From Siphonobacter aquaeclarae (GTDB lineage Bacteria; Bacteroidota; Bacteroidia; Cytophagales; Spirosomataceae), in NCBI RefSeq assembly GCF_900103285.1, contig NZ_FNGS01000003.1, forward strand, positions 62,001 to 126,000: a stretch of 64,000 nt of DNA, read 5' to 3'. Made by a program: the position numbers and the translations under genes. The stretch's first letter is position 1. Every line of letters begins with the position of its first letter. Shown here in pieces: positions 53,855-63,565 of the stretch. The notes under the pieces are model-generated. The model searched no databases. It saw only the letters and a list, made by a program, of their open reading frames with translations, and was not told the DNA's origin.

Positions 53855-56800
53855 ATGATTCGAAAAATATTTTTTCTGACCCTGGTCCTGATTACGTGCT
53901 TTCTGACCGCCAGAAGCCAGTCGATCAAAGTGAGCGGTCGGCTCTGTGTCCCCGAGCAGGGATGCGGAGGTGACTCCACACGCTTCGAGGTCACGGGGGC
54001 AGCCAATATCGCGACGTATAACTGGACCTTCGGAGACACCCAGGCCAATACGTCCAACCGCGCCCTGGCCCGGCACCTCTATCTGCAGCCCGGCCAATAC
54101 AACATCCGCGTTTCACTGACCTTTACCGGCGGAGCGGCTCCCGTCTCGAAAGACACGACTATTACCATTGGCGACCTGCCGCCGGCTTTTGAATTTTTCG
54201 GAGGAAAGGAAGATACTACCATTTGTCCCGGAACCAAGCTGCTCCTCGACCCGTATGATTCCCGTTTTTTCAAGGGAACGGTACCCACTGATGTGACCTA
54301 CCTGTGGTATCCGTCAGGAGATACGACGCGGACCATCGAAGTGGATTCCATGGGCTGCTATTCTGTCGAAGTAAAGAATAAAAACGGGTGTACCGTTACC
54401 GACCGGATCAACGTCAAAATCTGCGGAGAAAGCGAGCAACAGGCGTCCAAGTGGTATTTCGGATCGAACGCCGGGATCAGTTTCGAAGGCGGACAGCCCA
54501 CGGCGATTACCGACGGAAAAATCAATACCCCGGAAGGCACATCCTCGATATCGGACCGGAAGGGGAACCTGCTCTTTTACACCGACGGCAGGACGATATA
54601 CGACCGGGACGGAAACGTAATGAAATCCAGGGACCCGGCCCAGGATACCGTCAAACTCGGCGGGAGTCCCGGCTCCACACAAGCCGCGCTTATTGTGCCT
54701 CAGCCGAGCTGCCGGGGGTGTGAGACGATCTATTATGTCTTCACCACGAAAGACGTAAACGACTCCCTCAAATGCCTGGAATACACCACTGTAGACATGC
54801 GCGGAAACAAAGGAAAGGGTATCGTCCTCGAAAAAAATGTACTACTCCAATGCGGTGTAACCGAACGCCTGACGTCGATTCAAAACCCGATCGATTCGTC
54901 GTACTGGGTCCTGACCCACGCGTACGGTACCAACCAGTTTATTCTCAAACGACTGACGAAAAACGGCCTCGAAGACGCCAACTCCCCTTCCATCGGCTTG
55001 CCGCATGACACCAAATACCGGGGCGAAGGGCAGATTAAATTCGCTACCTCCGGCGGGAAAATGGGCGTTGTCGTGCCCGGACCCGACCGGAACTATGTCG
55101 AAGTATATGATTTCAACGATACGACCGGTACCATCACCAACAAAATCACGATAGACCTGGGGCCGGCGCCGCCTTCTGCCTATGGGGTCGAGTTTTCGCC
55201 GGACGGGACCAAAATGTACGTGACGCTGAAAGGGACGAAGGATAGCTCCTCGGTGCTGTTGCAGTACGACCTGACCAGCAAGGATTCGGCGACAGTCGCG
55301 GCGTCGAAACTCGAAGTAGCCCGTTCCGAACAGATTTTCGGGGCGCTCCAGTACGCGCCTGATGGCAAGATTTACATGGCCATCGAGGGAAGCGGCTCAT
55401 TAGGGGTCATAAGTCAGCCGGATGGTACTACGCTGAAAGACATTGATTTCCAGGAAAATGGCTTTGACCTGGGTGGGAAAACCAGTCAGCTTGGGCTTCC
55501 AAACTTTGTTCAGAGCATCATTCAGCCGCCAACAGGACCCGGAATCAGCGTAGCCGATACCTGCTTTGGGGTACCGACGCAGTTTCAGTCCGGCCCCATC
55601 TGCGACCCGTTGAAGGACAAGTATGAATGGGATTTCGGGGATGGCGCTACCTCAAAGGATCAGTCCCCTACTCACCTGTATGCCGCGCCGGGGCTGTACA
55701 CTGTCAAACTCCGGCAGTATAACCAGTGCAAGGATACGACGATGACCTATCAGCTGACGATCAAGCCGCAGCCGGTAGCAGATCTGGGCCCGGATATCAA
55801 TGCCTGCGCCAACTCCGTTGAGCTGGATTCGAAAAGTCAGTATCCGAATAGTCAGTATATCTGGCTACGAAACGGGCGGATATTGAATGTGCCGACTACC
55901 GCGTCAAAAATCCGTGTCGATTCTACCGGTCTTTACATCGTGGTGGTAGCCATCGGAGAATGTTACGACATGGATACCATTCAGGTGATTCTTGAGCGAC
56001 CGCCTCTCTATAAGTTGAAGCAGGATTCGACGTTTTGCGCCGGAAATTCGCTTCGCCTGGATGCAGGTCCGGGAGGTTCTGCCTACCTGTGGAGTACCGG
56101 TGCGACGACACAACAGATTACTGTCAATCAGACCGGCAACTACGTCGTAACCGTGACGCTGCCCCGGACCAATAACATCAGCTGCCAGGTGTCAGATACG
56201 GTAAAAGTGAACGTACTGCCGCTCCCGCAAATCAGCCTGACGCCTCCAAGGAATATCTGTGCCAATGCGCAACCGGTGCGATTACCTGCCAGCCCGACGA
56301 ATGGCAAGTGGTCGGGGCCGGGCGTCGATTCTACCGGATTATTTACGCCAAAGCTTCAGCTGATCGGCGCGCAGACGCTGTCGTATGCTGTGAAGGGAGC
56401 GAATGGCTGTTCAAATTCAGCGTCGACGGTCATTACAGTTGATTCATACCCCAACTTCACCCTCGGGCCGGATATGGCGTATTGTGCAGATAGCCTGAGG
56501 ATACTATCCGGCCCTGCAATTCCGGGTGCGACGTATTTCTGGAGTACCGGAGAACGGACACAATCGATACAACCGAAATCGTCGGGTACTTACCGGCTGA
56601 TTGTCGGCGCCGGAAATTGTAACAATGCCGATACCGTGGCGATTAAGGTACTGCCCATGCCGAACCTGACGCTGCCGACGAAGGCGACGGTTTGTGTAGC
56701 CGATAACCGGACCGTCGCGCTCGACGCCGGTGGCAACCCGACCTTCCAATACCGCTGGAATCCGGGCGGGGAAACGACACGGATCATTAACGTCGGGAAA

Positions 56801-57169
56801 GTAGGCGTGTATACCGTGGAGGTGACCAATGCTGACGGCTGCGCAGAAGATCATTCCATCGAAGTGGTGGATATGTGCGAACCCCAGATCTATGTTCCGG
56901 ACGCGTTCTCGCCGAACGGAGACGGAACCAACGACCGCCTGAAAGTAACGACGGCGCACGTTGCCGACCGGGATTATGAATTCCGGATTTATGACCGGTG
57001 GGGCGAGCTCATCTTCCGCACAAACGACAAAAACGAAGAGTGGGACGGTACGTATAAGGGAAGATCGTTCCCGCCTTCTACCTACGCCTGGGTCGTTGTT
57101 TACCGGAGCCTCTACTACCCCGAGCGGGGCATCAGTACCCAGCGCGGAGCAGTACTGATCGCCAAATAG
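53855..57169 (+). CDS. Large PKD/Ig-like surface protein with gliding-type (CHU_C) C-terminal domain
   Basis: 1104 aa, signal peptide RKIFFLTLVLITCFLTARSQ. Order: PKD domain (YNWTFGDTQ, about 30-110), Ig-like segment, a propeller-like region of about 370 residues starting WYFGSNAGISFEGGQP, and a second PKD (YEWDFGDGATSKDQSPTHLY, about 590-640). Repeated Ig-like modules follow (LGPDINAC, LGPDMAYC, YLWSTGATTQQI, YFWSTGERTQSI), and then the C-terminal domain from about 1013 (YVPDAFSPNGDGTNDRLKV). The last 90 residues are the type B sorting domain recognised by the type IX secretion system. Probably an adhesin or motility protein; divergent from its likely PorP/SprF partner. Confidence 0.92.
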   Translation: MIRKIFFLTLVLITCFLTARSQSIKVSGRLCVPEQGCGGDSTRFEVTGAANIATYNWTFGDTQANTSNRALARHLYLQPGQYNIRVSLTFTGGAAPVSKDTTITIGDLPPAFEFFGGKEDTTICPGTKLLLDPYDSRFFKGTVPTDVTYLWYPSGDTTRTIEVDSMGCYSVEVKNKNGCTVTDRINVKICGESEQQASKWYFGSNAGISFEGGQPTAITDGKINTPEGTSSISDRKGNLLFYTDGRTIYDRDGNVMKSRDPAQDTVKLGGSPGSTQAALIVPQPSCRGCETIYYVFTTKDVNDSLKCLEYTTVDMRGNKGKGIVLEKNVLLQCGVTERLTSIQNPIDSSYWVLTHAYGTNQFILKRLTKNGLEDANSPSIGLPHDTKYRGEGQIKFATSGGKMGVVVPGPDRNYVEVYDFNDTTGTITNKITIDLGPAPPSAYGVEFSPDGTKMYVTLKGTKDSSSVLLQYDLTSKDSATVAASKLEVARSEQIFGALQYAPDGKIYMAIEGSGSLGVISQPDGTTLKDIDFQENGFDLGGKTSQLGLPNFVQSIIQPPTGPGISVADTCFGVPTQFQSGPICDPLKDKYEWDFGDGATSKDQSPTHLYAAPGLYTVKLRQYNQCKDTTMTYQLTIKPQPVADLGPDINACANSVELDSKSQYPNSQYIWLRNGRILNVPTTASKIRVDSTGLYIVVVAIGECYDMDTIQVILERPPLYKLKQDSTFCAGNSLRLDAGPGGSAYLWSTGATTQQITVNQTGNYVVTVTLPRTNNISCQVSDTVKVNVLPLPQISLTPPRNICANAQPVRLPASPTNGKWSGPGVDSTGLFTPKLQLIGAQTLSYAVKGANGCSNSASTVITVDSYPNFTLGPDMAYCADSLRILSGPAIPGATYFWSTGERTQSIQPKSSGTYRLIVGAGNCNNADTVAIKVLPMPNLTLPTKATVCVADNRTVALDAGGNPTFQYRWNPGGETTRIINVGKVGVYTVEVTNADGCAEDHSIEVVDMCEPQIYVPDAFSPNGDGTNDRLKVTTAHVADRDYEFRIYDRWGELIFRTNDKNEEWDGTYKGRSFPPSTYAWVVVYRSLYYPERGISTQRGAVLIAK

Positions 57170-58130: not shown

Positions 58131-58886
58131 TCAGAAACCGATCGAGTTTCCGCCATCTACCGGCAACGACGCGCCAGTGATATACCCGGATGCGTCCGAA
58201 GCGAGGAAAACGGCCGCGTAGCCGATGTCAGCCGGTTTCCCGAAGCGGCTCATGGGCGTACGCCGCAGGGCCCGGTTCATGCGGTCGGGGTCGCCGCTCA
58301 TCGCGGTTTTCATCATGTCGGTTTCGATAAAACCAGGAGCGATGGCATTGATCCGGACATTGTAGGGGGAAAATTCCGAGGCAAGTACCTTAATCATCCC
58401 GGCGACAGCCGATTTGGACGCCGCATACGCCGCTACCCGGTCGATACCGTAGTAGGCCGCCATCGACGTAATCATGATGATGCTGCCTCGCTGCCGCGCA
58501 ATCATGCGCCGGGCACATTCCCGCGTGAGCGCGAAGACGGCATGCAGGTTTGTTTGAACGATGCGGTGAAAATCGTCGTCTGTTACTTCCAGCGCCGGTT
58601 TTTTCATGTTCACGCCGGCGTTGTTGACGAGGATATCGATTGCGCCGAGTGTTGCTTCCACCTGCTGAATCAAACCGGGCAGGGTGGCGAGGTCTGTGAC
58701 GTCGTTGACAAGGTAGTGCGCGCCCTTTCCGAGGCGTTCAACGGCCTGTTGAAGGACTTCTTCCCGACGGCCGGTCAGGACGACAACAGCTCCTGCTTCT
58801 TTCAGGCAACGGGCAATGTCAAAGCCGATACCGCTGCCGCCGCCGGTGACGAGCGCTATTTTGTTTTCGAGGGAAAAGATGTTCAT
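58131..58886 (-). CDS. SDR-family oxidoreductase of the glucuronate locus
   Basis: 251 aa classical short-chain dehydrogenase: cofactor loop TGGGSGIG (14-21), NNAG, catalytic Ser141, Tyr154 and Lys158 (SMAAYYGIDRVAAYAASK), ending VDGGNSIGF. It starts one base after the stop of the UxuA-GH67 fusion. From this context it is probably the fructuronate/mannonate oxidoreductase that replaces UxuB in Bacteroidota, or a KduD-like enzyme. Specificity cannot be read from the sequence. Confidence 0.88.
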   Translation of the reverse strand: MNIFSLENKIALVTGGGSGIGFDIARCLKEAGAVVVLTGRREEVLQQAVERLGKGAHYLVNDVTDLATLPGLIQQVEATLGAIDILVNNAGVNMKKPALEVTDDDFHRIVQTNLHAVFALTRECARRMIARQRGSIIMITSMAAYYGIDRVAAYAASKSAVAGMIKVLASEFSPYNVRINAIAPGFIETDMMKTAMSGDPDRMNRALRRTPMSRFGKPADIGYAAVFLASDASGYITGASLPVDGGNSIGF

Positions 58887-58887
58887 G

Positions 58888-61800
58888 TCAGCGTAGTTGG
58901 TAAACGTCTGTCAGGGTTTTGGTTTCTTCGAGGGAATGTCCGGGTTTCTCGACACCAACCGGAAGCGGCATCCGCGAAAAGGTCTGAAAATACTGCACGC
59001 AGGCATCCCGCCACCAGCGGGCTTCCCGAAGCTGAATGGAAAGACGGCCGGCGACGTGCGTAAATACTTCCGGGTCGACCGCTTTTTTCACGCCGTTCCA
59101 TTGCTGCTGCATCCGCGCGACGCTCTTCACGCCGGCATCGTACCGGTAGCAAAGCTCATCCCATAACGTCCGCCCGTTGGCCATTTTCTGCGACCAGGCA
59201 ACATGGTGAAACCACAGCAAGTATTCGGGCGGACAGTTCTCACCCCACTTTGCTTGAATTTCAGGCGAATACAGGCCCAGGGCATTACTGCCCGACGCAG
59301 ATCGGTTGAAGCCGATGCCCAGCGAATCGGCCCGGTGATAGTAAACGGCCGTCCAGTCCGGCCGGGCACTTTTCGCCAGCCACGGCTCAGGACCGTAGTG
59401 GAGATTGTGACCCATCAGGTGATGCAGACCGAGAGGTGTCATGTAGTTGACAACCGCCTCACGCGAGCCCATCATCATCTCCCGGATACTCGAAACAGCT
59501 TCGGGCTGATGTGTCAGCGTCATATGAATCCATTCCGTAGCGACCTGATCCGCAGCAAGCGTCCAATCCCAGGCCAGTCGCCCGAACGCATACCAGTTGG
59601 CCTGACCAAAGGGATGGCCCGTCCAGTTACGGTCGGAACCGGTATTCGCAACTCCTGCCATACCTGTCATCCGGTAGCCGTGCAGCGAACCGTCGACGAC
59701 CCTGCCGACCTCTGTTCCTGCACCGGCAACGGGGGTATCCAGGCATTCCTTGAACATCGGCGCGAGATAGGCCAGGTGCGTGGCAAACCCGAGGTACTCC
59801 TGCGTAAGCTGAAACTCCATCATGAGCGGAGTTCGCGGCATCGCGCCGAAGAGCGGGTGAAACGGCTCCCGCGGCTGAAAGTCAATCGGGCCGTTTTTGA
59901 CCTGTACAAGGACTTTCGGGTGAAACTTCCCGTCTAAAGGCTTGAACTCTTCAAAGCCTTCCTTTGCCCGGTCGCCGTTGGAATTGGCCTTGTATACAAA
60001 CGACCGCCACATCACGATACCGGGATGATTACCAAGCGCTTCTGCTAGCATATTGGCGCCGTCGGCATGGGTGCGGCCATAGTCCTGCGGGCCTGGCTCC
60101 CCCTCCGAATTGGCTTTCACCAGGAATCCGCCGAAATCCGGAATACGCGCATAGATTTCATCGGTCTTGGCGGCCCACCATTTTCGCACTTCCGGGTTAA
60201 GAGGGTCGGACGTCTGCTGCTTCCCGAGCGTTTTCGGAGCCGCAAAAAACACCGACAGATATACCTTGATACCATATGGCCGGAATACGTCTGCCAGCGC
60301 TGCGAGCTTGTCGAGGTACTCCGGCGTCAGAAAACGGGCGCTGGCATTGACGTTATTGACGACGCTGCCGTTGATACCGACCGAAGCGCTGGCGCGGGCA
60401 TAGTCGCGGTAGCGCTCATCCACTACATCCGGCAGGTCAAACCACTTCCAGAGCGATGAGCCCGCATATCCCCGCTCGATGGTACCGTTGTTATTATCCC
60501 AGTGATTGAGCAGGCGGTACTTCACTTTCGGACTGCTGGAGATCGATAGTCCGTCGAGCGGCTGGAGTGTCTGCAACGCCCGCAGGAAGGCGAAAGAAGC
60601 ATAAATCAGACCCTGACTGCTCCGCGCCGATAGTATAATGCCGGAAGAGCCCGAAGTGATGGAATACCCTTCGTCATTGGCAACAAGAGATGGATTGATT
60701 TTCAGGGTAATAGCACCCATTCCTTCTTTTCCGCCCACTACCGGCTGTTTACCCGTCAGTCCCCGGATGCCGGCAACCAGCTCCTGTACGGCAGCCTCCG
60801 GTACGCCGGGAGAAGCAACGATACGATTCAGGCGGGGTGCATAGGCCGTACGATTGGCGGCGGGAAGCAGGTCGTATTTCAGCCAGAGGCGATACCCGTC
60901 GTCAGCGCGCGCCGTTGTTCCCCAGAAACCAAGAACAACGACCAGAACCGTTCGCAGCGTCTGCCAGACAGCCCGCTCCACGCCCCGCAGCTCGGCCAGG
61001 CCGCGCAAACGACCGATTGCGGAATAGCCGGGGTATGTTTTCTTTTCGAGGTCGTCAAGCATCTGATGCCCGTGATCCGGACGCATCGGAAGGTCGGTTT
61101 CACCTTCTCCGGCGTCGGCGCGCCGTATTTGTTCCAGTGACAGTTCACGGATAACGGCCACCATATCAACATCCCCTTCCAGGTGATCGGCTTCGTGGAA
61201 ATTGAGGGGATTTTCCTCCCGTTTGGTAGAGCGGAGGTGGACGAAGTGGATCCGGCTGCCCAGTCGGCGGATAATCGACGTCAGGTCATTATCCGCCCGC
61301 ACACCCAGCGAGCCGGTACAAAACGTAATACCATTAGCGATGGAATAATGGGCGTTAGTCAACTGAATGAGGTCTGCTTCTGTCGAAACGACCCGTGGCA
61401 ACCCCAGCAGCGGTTTCGGAGGATCATCCGGGTGAATACACAGCCGGATACCCACTTCCTCGGCAACGGGCGCAACAGCCCGGATGAAGGTATACAGGTT
61501 TTCACGCAGGCCTGCATCGCCGATTTCCCGGTATGCGTCCAGTTTTTCCTGAAAGCTGCTGAGTTCAAAGGCTTCTTCCGAGCCGGGTAGCCCGAGGAGA
61601 ACGGTATCGGTCAGGCGCTGACGCTCTGCTGCCGTCATGCCTGCGAATTTTTCCCGGGCTTTTTCAGCGACGTCGGAGGTATAGTCGGCTTCCGCGCCGG
61701 GGCGTTGCAGGATGCAGAGGTCAAATACGGCAAAATCTTCCCAAACAAAACGCAGGCCCAGCGATCCGTCCGGCATTTCATAGCGGACGTCGGTGCGGGA

Positions 61801-62151
61801 CCAGTCCAATACCGGCATAAAATTGTAGCAAACGGTCTGAATACCGCAGGCAGCGAGGTTACGAAGCGATTGCCGGTAGTGTTCGATGTATTTTTCCCGG
61901 GAAGGCAGCCCCTTCTTGATGTCTTCGTGAACGGGCAGGCTCTCTACCACCGCCCAGTGCAGGGGCGTATAGCGGTCGTTGCCGGCCTCAATACGTGCTT
62001 TCCGTTCGAGGATCGCTTCGACGGGCCAGGTATCGCCCACCGGAATCTGGTGCAGCGCCGTGACAACGCCGGTGCAGCCGGCCTGGCGGATGTCCATCAA
62101 CGACACCGGGTCGTGCGGACCGAACCAACGCATGGTTTGAATGAAAGGCAT
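58888..62151 (-). CDS. uxuA: In-frame fusion: mannonate dehydratase (UxuA) + GH67 alpha-glucuronidase
   Basis: 1087 aa from the ATG at 62151. Residues 1 to about 390 are a full-length mannonate dehydratase ([14 protein letters not shown], metal-site segments CIHPDDPP and DHGHQM, terminal [17 protein letters not shown]), which dehydrates D-mannonate to 2-keto-3-deoxygluconate. About 697 further residues are a GH67 alpha-glucuronidase ([10 protein letters not shown], acid motif [30 protein letters not shown]), which removes 4-O-methylglucuronic acid from xylo-oligosaccharides. No stop separates them. At the junction (GTG at 60981) a full signal peptide begins, so the GH67 part could also be made alone and exported. 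A cytosolic enzyme joined to an exported one is topologically odd. Confidence 0.8.
60904..60981 (-). other. Internal GTG start and signal peptide at the UxuA-GH67 junction
   Basis: Reading minus from 60981: a GTG codon, basic n-region (ERAVWQTLR), hydrophobic core ([10 protein letters not shown]) and a cleavage-like GTTARA before the mature GH67 start (DDGYRLW). It overlaps the expected UxuA C terminus in the same frame, so UxuA's last residues double as the n-region of the signal. No terminator or promoter lies in front of it. Confidence 0.6.
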
Positions 62152-62199: not shown

Positions 62200-62279
62200 C
62201 GCCAACCGAAAGGAAAAATGACAGTGTATTTCCGACAAAAGCAAATGCTTTTCGTCTAATCCTGACCCGGTTATCGTCC

Positions 62280-62323: not shown

Positions 62324-62425
62324 GAAAAATCCGGTAATTTGGAAAAAGATAGGTGCGGTCGTGGATTGCTATATCTGGTGACAGGCAAAGTGCCTGCGGG
62401 TGTTTTCCCGGTAAAATCCAAAACC

Positions 62426-63565
62426 ATGATTGAGTGTACGCGTTGCGGCAGGGTAGAAGGCATCAAACGGGCGGGTTTCGTCCGCGGGCAGCAGCGGTAT
62501 TTCTGCCGGGATTGCCGGTATTACTTCGTGCTGGAAAAGCAGGCGCCTGCGCCCCGGCGGCGTCAGACAACGATCATTGACATCGCCCGGCACCTCGGCG
62601 TCTCTCCTTCCACGGTATCGAAAGCGCTGTCGGGCCGGCAGGATATCAGCCCACGTACCCGCGAAGAAATCCGCCGGGTCGCCGCTGAGTTGCAGTACCA
62701 GCCCAATTTGCTGGCACAGGGGCTTACGTCCAGCAAAACCTTTACCATCGGGGTGATTATTCCGAATATCGAGCGACCGTTTTTTGCTTCGGTCGTCAGC
62801 GGCATCCAACAGGTCGTTTCTCCGGCGGGGTACCGCGTGATGATCTGTCAGTCAAATGAATCGCATGCGACGGAGGTCGCCAACGTCCAGGCGCTGGTAG
62901 CGAGCCGGGTGGAAGGCATGCTGATCTGCCATTCCATCGAAACAGAAACATTTGATCACATCGCGCGACCGTTTGCCAACGGATTTCCGATCGTGCATTT
63001 CGACCGTGTTTGCGAAGAAATCGCGACAGCTAAGGTCATTCAGGACGATTTTGGCGGCGCCTTTGCGATGGTGGAGCATCTCCTTCAGCAAGGGTACCGC
63101 CGGATCGCCATCCTCGCCGGACCGGAGAAACTGCTGATCAGCCGCCGGCGCCTGGCCGGGTATCAGGCCGCGCTGGAAAAATACGGTCTGCCGCTGGAAG
63201 AAGAGCTGATCTATCATGGTGATTTCCGGCCGGAGACAGCCCGGCGGGCGCTGGAACAATGGGAAAACCAGCGTCCGGATGCCGTGTTTTGCATTCACTA
63301 CGGCAATGCCATTGACCTGTTGCAAGCCTTGCATGAGCGGGGCATCCGGGTGCCGGAGGAGATGGCGCTCGCCGGTTTCGGCGATGAGCTGCTGACCGCC
63401 CTTATCGAGCCGGGTCTGACGACTATCCAGCCCTACCCGTTTCAGATCGGGCAGAAAGCCGCGCGTTTGCTGCTGGAACAGATTCATCATCCCGAGTCAT
63501 TTGTCCCGGCAACGCATGTGCTGAAGGGGGAGTTGATCGTGCGGGGGTCTTCCAGGAAGAAATAA
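62426..63565 (+). CDS. LacI-family transcriptional regulator with N-terminal zinc ribbon
   Basis: 379 aa from the ATG at 62426. Residues 1-35 form a transposase-like zinc ribbon, Cys4-x2-Cys7 and Cys27-x2-Cys30, with the phrase GQQRYFCRDCRYYF as in IS1/InsA zinc-binding domains. A proline/arginine linker leads to the LacI helix-turn-helix (TTIIDIARHLGVSPSTVSKAL, about 47-67, with the hinge LQYQPNLLAQGL). After it comes a full periplasmic-binding-protein-like ligand domain (IGVIIPNIERPFF, AGFGDELLTALIEPGLTTI). It probably represses the divergent glucuronate operon through the 62280-62323 palindrome; the ligand is likely a uronate or xylo-oligosaccharide derivative. Confidence 0.9.
   Translation: MIECTRCGRVEGIKRAGFVRGQQRYFCRDCRYYFVLEKQAPAPRRRQTTIIDIARHLGVSPSTVSKALSGRQDISPRTREEIRRVAAELQYQPNLLAQGLTSSKTFTIGVIIPNIERPFFASVVSGIQQVVSPAGYRVMICQSNESHATEVANVQALVASRVEGMLICHSIETETFDHIARPFANGFPIVHFDRVCEEIATAKVIQDDFGGAFAMVEHLLQQGYRRIAILAGPEKLLISRRRLAGYQAALEKYGLPLEEELIYHGDFRPETARRALEQWENQRPDAVFCIHYGNAIDLLQALHERGIRVPEEMALAGFGDELLTALIEPGLTTIQPYPFQIGQKAARLLLEQIHHPESFVPATHVLKGELIVRGSSRKK

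Follow-up and report, generated by a model that had tools for sequence, protein, structure and literature searches.

How can one uninterrupted reading frame encode both a mannonate dehydratase (UxuA) and a GH67 alpha-glucuronidase when the junction between them resembles an export signal? The question is raised by a gene of Siphonobacter aquaeclarae that lies in the window, the 64,000-nucleotide stretch of DNA (positions 62,001 to 126,000 of contig NZ_FNGS01000003.1) analyzed here as a whole. The first-pass annotation, made from the letters alone, had put forward a true bifunctional protein, a dual-product gene with internal initiation, or a recent stop-codon loss or assembly error. The features needed for the argument are the following:

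58888..62151, minus strand: uxuA-GH67 fusion gene, 1087 codons plus stop, without an internal stop
60958..62151, minus strand: UxuA (mannonate dehydratase) part, residues 1 to about 398 (Pfam, TIGR00695)
60904..60981, minus strand: seam, residues 391-416, with the end of UxuA as n-region, a hydrophobic core and Ala-Arg-Ala, followed by DDGY
60979..60981, minus strand: in-frame GTG, residue 391, the internal start candidate of the first-pass annotation
60922-60951, minus strand: hydrophobic core of the seam, 10 residues (hydropathy)
58891..60903, minus strand: GH67 alpha-glucuronidase part, residues 417-1087 (Pfam, structure matches)
58131..58886, minus strand: SDR-family oxidoreductase, candidate fructuronate reductase, directly downstream of the fusion
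62339..63565, plus strand: divergent LacI-type regulator, putatively of this operon (gene neighbourhood)

Domain content and recurrence of the fused gene

The fusion gene starts with an ATG at 62151 and ends with a TGA at 58890-58888 in the minus-strand frame. An upstream in-frame TTG at 62244 would lengthen the product to 1118 aa; the N-termini of fused relatives read M[PS]F..MRW or MIHTMRW, and thus ATG 62151 fits as the start. The Pfam UxuA domain covers residues 5-395 (409 bits), and the TIGR00695 uxuA model matches residues 5-396 over model positions 3-388 of 394 with 527 bits, against a cut-off of 199.55. Among solved structures, this half matched mannonate dehydratase 4eac (519 bits, residues 5-397). 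The N, middle and C-terminal Pfam domains of GH67 lie over residues 422-1066; the middle (PF07488, 481 bits) and C-terminal (PF07477, 296 bits) domains score far above their cut-offs, and the N domain (PF03648) scores 24.1 bits, slightly below its cut-off of 24.3. The GH67 half also matched the alpha-glucuronidase structure 1gqi with 733 bits, residues 417-1081 aligning to 1-689. UxuA residues H240, C278, H305 and D359, which we take to be metal-site or catalytic residues, are kept in all 18 complete fusions described below and in a second UxuA of the window's genome. The presumed GH67 catalytic residues E683, D757 and E785 are likewise kept in 18/18, and E683 aligns with the residue changed in structure 1h41. 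By sequence, the first half is a full-length member of the mannonate dehydratase family, and the second is an alpha-glucuronidase family member by its middle and C-terminal domains and catalytic acids. Frame, Pfam, TIGR00695 and structure matches together bear out the claim of one uninterrupted 1087-codon frame holding a complete UxuA and a complete GH67. An AlphaFold2 model of the whole chain, built from 11 sequences, had a mean pLDDT of 55.9, and no conclusion is drawn from it.

To look for the same architecture in related genomes, as the first-pass annotation had suggested, we searched 200 genomes of the window's family and examined 144 GH67 loci with their upstream DNA, leaving out a partial GH67 of G117 (L, G, g and f codes denote loci, genomes, genera and families of the comparison set). 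An in-frame uxuA-GH67 fusion was found in 18 of the 144 loci, spanning 10 genus codes; the architecture of L084-L087, L089-L092 and L095-L103 is like that of the window, and a 19th fusion, in G197, is cut by a contig end. Separate adjacent genes were commoner than fused ones, with a uxuA at most 1000 bases upstream of GH67 on the same strand at 71/144 loci; 22 of these 71 pairs share a reading frame, which is about the chance expectation, and 55/144 loci were without such an upstream uxuA. The recurrence in 18/144 loci excludes chance as the source of the fusion. An assembly error or a recent strain-specific stop loss might draw on the five other genomes of the same genus, none of which has the fusion (the GH67 locus was examined in four, G020, G046, G060 and G083), but it is refuted, and in our judgement vanishingly improbable, since 18 complete fusions and one partial one exist and the 17 in other species come from separate assemblies, represent nine further genus codes and have both halves conserved. 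Relatives thus do not all carry two separate genes, and the uxuA-GH67 fusion is a real recurrent gene, neither a sequencing nor a strain error.

Beyond the family, we used a seam profile (A1), with which distant or weak fusions could be missed: in an order search of 390 genomes, seam-spanning matches came from at least five genomes (E up to 1e-20), all of the window's family and none outside it among the matches listed, and in a phylum search of 395 genomes (E up to 1e-60) only the window matched across the seam. Twelve apparent extra fusions in family f12, each with an open frame above 1100 aa in the order search, were rejected; 20 order-search loci were fetched, and 19/19 from f12 had a stop between the adjacent genes, while the 20th (G203, f5) was without a nearby GH67. 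A reported open frame above 1100 aa is therefore no evidence of fusion, because adjacent in-frame genes with a stop between them also give it. Among plasmid records, 0 of 302 matching ones covered 80% of the fusion in one place. No earlier description of a UxuA-GH67 fusion was found in the titles and abstract openings examined.

Genomic context, selection and history

The SDR oxidoreductase gene follows the fusion in L332 and L333 too; the LacI gene is also present in L332, and L333 has a Fic-domain gene in its place. On the plus strand beside the window's operon (53855-57169), inspection by eye showed a protein of 1104 aa that looks secreted and has PKD-like repeats and a C-terminal region of gliding type. 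A further full-length standalone UxuA was found in 17 of the 18 fused genomes, the exception being G167, which is 86% complete. In the window's genome, this second UxuA has as neighbours an altronate dehydratase and a reductase of the mannitol dehydrogenase type, in what is presumably a general hexuronate operon, and the UxuA of the fusion may be an additional copy dedicated to its pathway. With a standalone UxuA elsewhere, the benefit of the fused one would be tethering or fixed dosage rather than sole supply.

Across eight g13 species, pN/pS was 0.063 for UxuA, 0.082 for GH67 and 0.084 for the last 18 residues ahead of DDGY. Standalone leaders, taken in six sets, gave 0.21-0.59, and the seam gave 0.52 for L085/L086, 0.45 for L087/L089/L090 and 0.12 for L087/L089 alone. 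Divergence at synonymous sites is high (pS mostly 0.3-0.7), which makes all these ratios rough. In g13, purifying selection on both halves is strong. The low and the high seam values both fit a working signal, and the conservation of the g13 seam hints at an added role, for example as a tail that keeps UxuA at the membrane permanently.

In f12, another family of this order, the two genes are adjacent and separate in 19/19 fetched loci, and adjacency is therefore probably the older state. We built a quick tree from joined UxuA and GH67 sequences, treated as sharing one history, with 51 chosen rows (13 of the 18 fused, 30 of the 71 adjacent and 8 of the 19 f12 loci) and f12 as outgroup. The fusions fell into four groups: L083-L086; L087 with L089-L091; L092; and L103 with g13. 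The AU test rejected a single fused clade (p 0.0025). It also rejected monophyly of the last three groups, a grouping defined once the tree was known (p 0.0086), and did not reject L092 with g13 (p 0.12). The fusion state needs six changes on a GH67-only tree, and the fused genomes need five on an rpoB tree of 30 chosen genomes, where the gene group G000, G005 and G042 is split among three regions, which suggests gene transfer. The spread of the fusion on the trees is patchy; several fusions, one fusion with later splits, or transfer are all possible.

Several further loci were noted in passing. In the window's own genus, L227 and L228 (G083 and G046) have a close GH67 (69%) with an unusually long leader (MAFF..FQR.SQ..) and no uxuA in about 4 kb upstream; no UxuA remnant was seen by eye before GH67 of either locus. 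In G083, for which L334 was also examined, a GH16 gene lies near GH67, an arrangement that the window shares and that would fit a loss of UxuA. In G060 (C84) and G020 (C8), of the same genus (L336, L337), uxuA and GH67 lie on different contigs; their UxuA shares 73-79% identity with the fused half, and their GH67 groups elsewhere in the GH67 tree. In the same tree, GH67 of L006 (Thermoflexibacter ruber), which belongs to a different family, clusters with that of the Telluribacter fusion with local support of 85, a placement that suggests GH67 transfer between families. The GH67 frames of L187, L201 and L223 are broken or short from the expected start, and these may be pseudogenes or sequence errors.

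Seam sequence and the predicted sorting of the chain

The 26 seam residues (391-416) directly precede DDGYRLW. A signal peptide had been proposed to start at an in-frame GTG exactly where UxuA ends. The GTG is indeed present at 60981-60979; however, it encodes residue 391, between G390 and E392, which are invariant in 11 aligned sequences. It thus lies inside the conserved tail of UxuA, and the putative signal peptide includes the final UxuA residues rather than following them. In unfused relatives, UxuA typically ends in ..GIxRSL or some residues beyond, and GH67 has a short leader of its own, after which an 11-residue stretch often comes; in the fusions, the UxuA tail passes straight into the hydrophobic core of the leader. 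Residue 398 of UxuA and the GH67 reference point are 51-66 bases apart in 18/18 fusions versus 65-916 (median 187) in the 71 separate pairs.

We assessed the putative export signal by simple hydropathy, charge and cut-site residues. In 18/18 fusions, no other 12-residue stretch of the chain is as hydrophobic as that in the seam (Kyte-Doolittle mean 2.06-3.38). The 123 standalone GH67 leaders compared have a mean of 2.53, a maximum of 3.23 and a 5th percentile of 1.94; 17 of the 18 seams lie inside their range, and L086 (3.38) lies above it. Net charge before the core is +1 or +2 in 17/18 fusions (0 in L084), and Ala occupies position -1 of the predicted cut, which in the window falls after residue 416 (A|DDGY), in all 18. 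Most standalone GH67 proteins of relatives start with a leader-like sequence ending at DDGY or similar. In the fusion, the signal-like stretch lies some 390 residues into the chain, and no hydrophobic leader was seen at the N-terminus itself. From these features, we propose that the seam is an internal export signal.

We lean modestly towards a single polypeptide whose UxuA half stays in the cytosol and whose GH67 half is exported through the internal signal, probably with a cut by signal peptidase. UxuA would be translated first and would fold in the cytosol. The hydrophobic seam, with the UxuA tail as n-region, would then act as an internal Sec-type signal (N-in/C-out) through which GH67 would be threaded into the periplasm. 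Signal peptidase I would probably cut after residue 416 and so release GH67 (about 75 kDa), while UxuA (about 47 kDa) would stay at the membrane with a hydrophobic C-terminal tail; an uncut chain would hold the two enzymes on either side of the inner membrane. That the frame is translated as one chain, and that its GH67 half is exported with the topology, cleavage and membrane tethering described, we infer from sequence features. The fuller version, a recurrent polyprotein sorted across the inner membrane and separated by signal peptidase, with a membrane-tethered dehydratase and both activities in fixed 1:1 supply, is plausible but falls somewhat short of probable.

The one-chain reading is favoured by the recurrence of the fusion, the retained seam, the kept residues, purifying selection on both halves and the poor contexts of internal starts. 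Furthermore, each of the 18 fused genomes has one GH67 (PF07488) match, which is the fusion, so any exported GH67 would have to come from it. Against this reading, the window's seam has the lowest hydrophobicity of all 18 (2.06), and position -3 is Leu in eight fusions, Ala in six, and Thr and Val in two each; Leu, Val or Thr at -3 is less typical for signal peptidase. In addition, a folded domain of about 400 residues ahead of the signal is unusual for Sec export, and for a disposable leader the g13 seam value of 0.084 would be unusually low.

The main rival, which the evidence disfavours and which we regard as unlikely, is a dual-product gene in which the full frame yields UxuA or the fusion and an internal start near the seam, such as GTG 60981, yields a normal exported GH67. 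That GTG would open a plausible 26-residue leader, and the window and nine other fusions outside g13 have an in-frame ATG, GTG or TTG 14-27 codons before DDGY. Over all fusions, there was no excess of start codons (ATG/GTG/TTG) in the nine codons after E[LI]RG, with 11/18 versus 58/78 unfused uxuA tails (p 0.26); one was present in 1/8 complete g13 fusions and in 10/10 others. Fusions outside g13 exceeded unfused tails for any start (10/10 versus 58/78, p 0.11) and for ATG (8/10 versus 37/78, p 0.09) in two-sided Fisher tests that treat the sequences as independent despite their relatedness, and the 10/10 count is a weak hint of internal initiation there. In g13, seven of the eight complete fusions are without such a start. 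L101 has no ATG, GTG or TTG from -45 to -13 before DDGY; its GTG at -12 sits in the hydrophobic core, and its next upstream ATG, at -49, is in the HQM motif of UxuA. Six of the eight g13 fusions keep a TTG at -31 and L095 has one at -28, which would allow a leader with a rare start codon and a long n-region in this genus.

The context of the ten candidate internal starts (mean AT 0.42 in the 20 preceding bases, folding -9.9 kcal/mol) resembles that of ordinary coding sequence at the corresponding spot of 75 unfused uxuA genes (0.40, -9.0 kcal/mol). By comparison, 125 predicted standalone GH67 starts gave 0.67 and -2.1 kcal/mol, and the fusions' own gene starts gave 0.71 and -1.9 kcal/mol. The window's GTG is the worst of the ten (0.15, -22.4 kcal/mol). 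The own gene starts of L087 and L089 are also low in AT (0.35 and 0.30), and a start can therefore not be recognized by AT content alone. The idea that a Met in the UxuA tail has been selected as an internal start found no support: Met occupied the position in 4/18 fused versus 25/78 unfused tails, the latter becoming 29/78 if four of five unmatched tails (..LQM..) are included. The claim of internal initiation at GTG 60981 thus keeps the seam starts outside g13 on its side and loses ground on context, on the overall count and on L101.

A soluble bifunctional cytosolic enzyme, in which the seam would be a buried linker and GH67 would act on imported aldouronic acids, appears quite unlikely. 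Intracellular GH67 enzymes are known, for example in Geobacillus, and such an enzyme would agree with the plain N-terminus, with the strongly conserved g13 seam and with an MFS transporter gene that follows the SDR gene in L333. However, the hydrophobic core and Ala at -1 are kept in 18/18 fusions even where letters change fast, as in L085/L086, and the leader-like starts of most standalone GH67 relatives also speak against a linker. Furthermore, the two enzymes, which had been described as catalyzing consecutive steps, do not: a uronate isomerase and a reductase act between the GH67 and UxuA steps, and channelling is therefore not expected. Of the proposal of a true bifunctional chain, the single chain is favoured, but the putative internal export signal points to a two-compartment chain, probably cut, rather than to a soluble bifunctional enzyme.

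Comparison with known systems

Fusions normally join domains of one compartment, whereas the halves of this one would belong on opposite sides of a membrane. If the chain is made whole, it would represent Sec export from behind an enzyme of about 400 residues and a natural route to two proteins from one start, and annotation that seeks signals only at N-termini would miss it.

Like other members of the UxuA family (TIGR00695 / PF03786; 4eac), the fused UxuA matches near-full family length (residues 5-397) with putative metal-site residues kept; unlike them, it has no stop of its own, and its tail enters an export-signal-like stretch and a second enzyme. Similarly, residues 417-1081 align to 1-689 of the 1gqi type of GH67, which we take to be Cellvibrio GlcA67A, with catalytic residues kept; in contrast to that type, the fused GH67 has no start codon or leader at the gene start, and its leader-like stretch is internal. 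ToxR and CadC are N-in/C-out membrane proteins with a cytosolic front domain, and the predicted topology of the fusion is of this type. It differs in that both its parts are enzymes and that its leader-like core is short and has Ala at -1, for which reason cleavage would be expected. FbcH of Bradyrhizobium japonicum is a cytochrome b/c1 precursor split by signal peptidase. It is likewise one bacterial gene giving two proteins through an internal signal sequence, the cut being only proposed for uxuA-GH67; but the front half of FbcH is a membrane protein, whereas the front of the fusion would be a soluble cytosolic metabolic enzyme.
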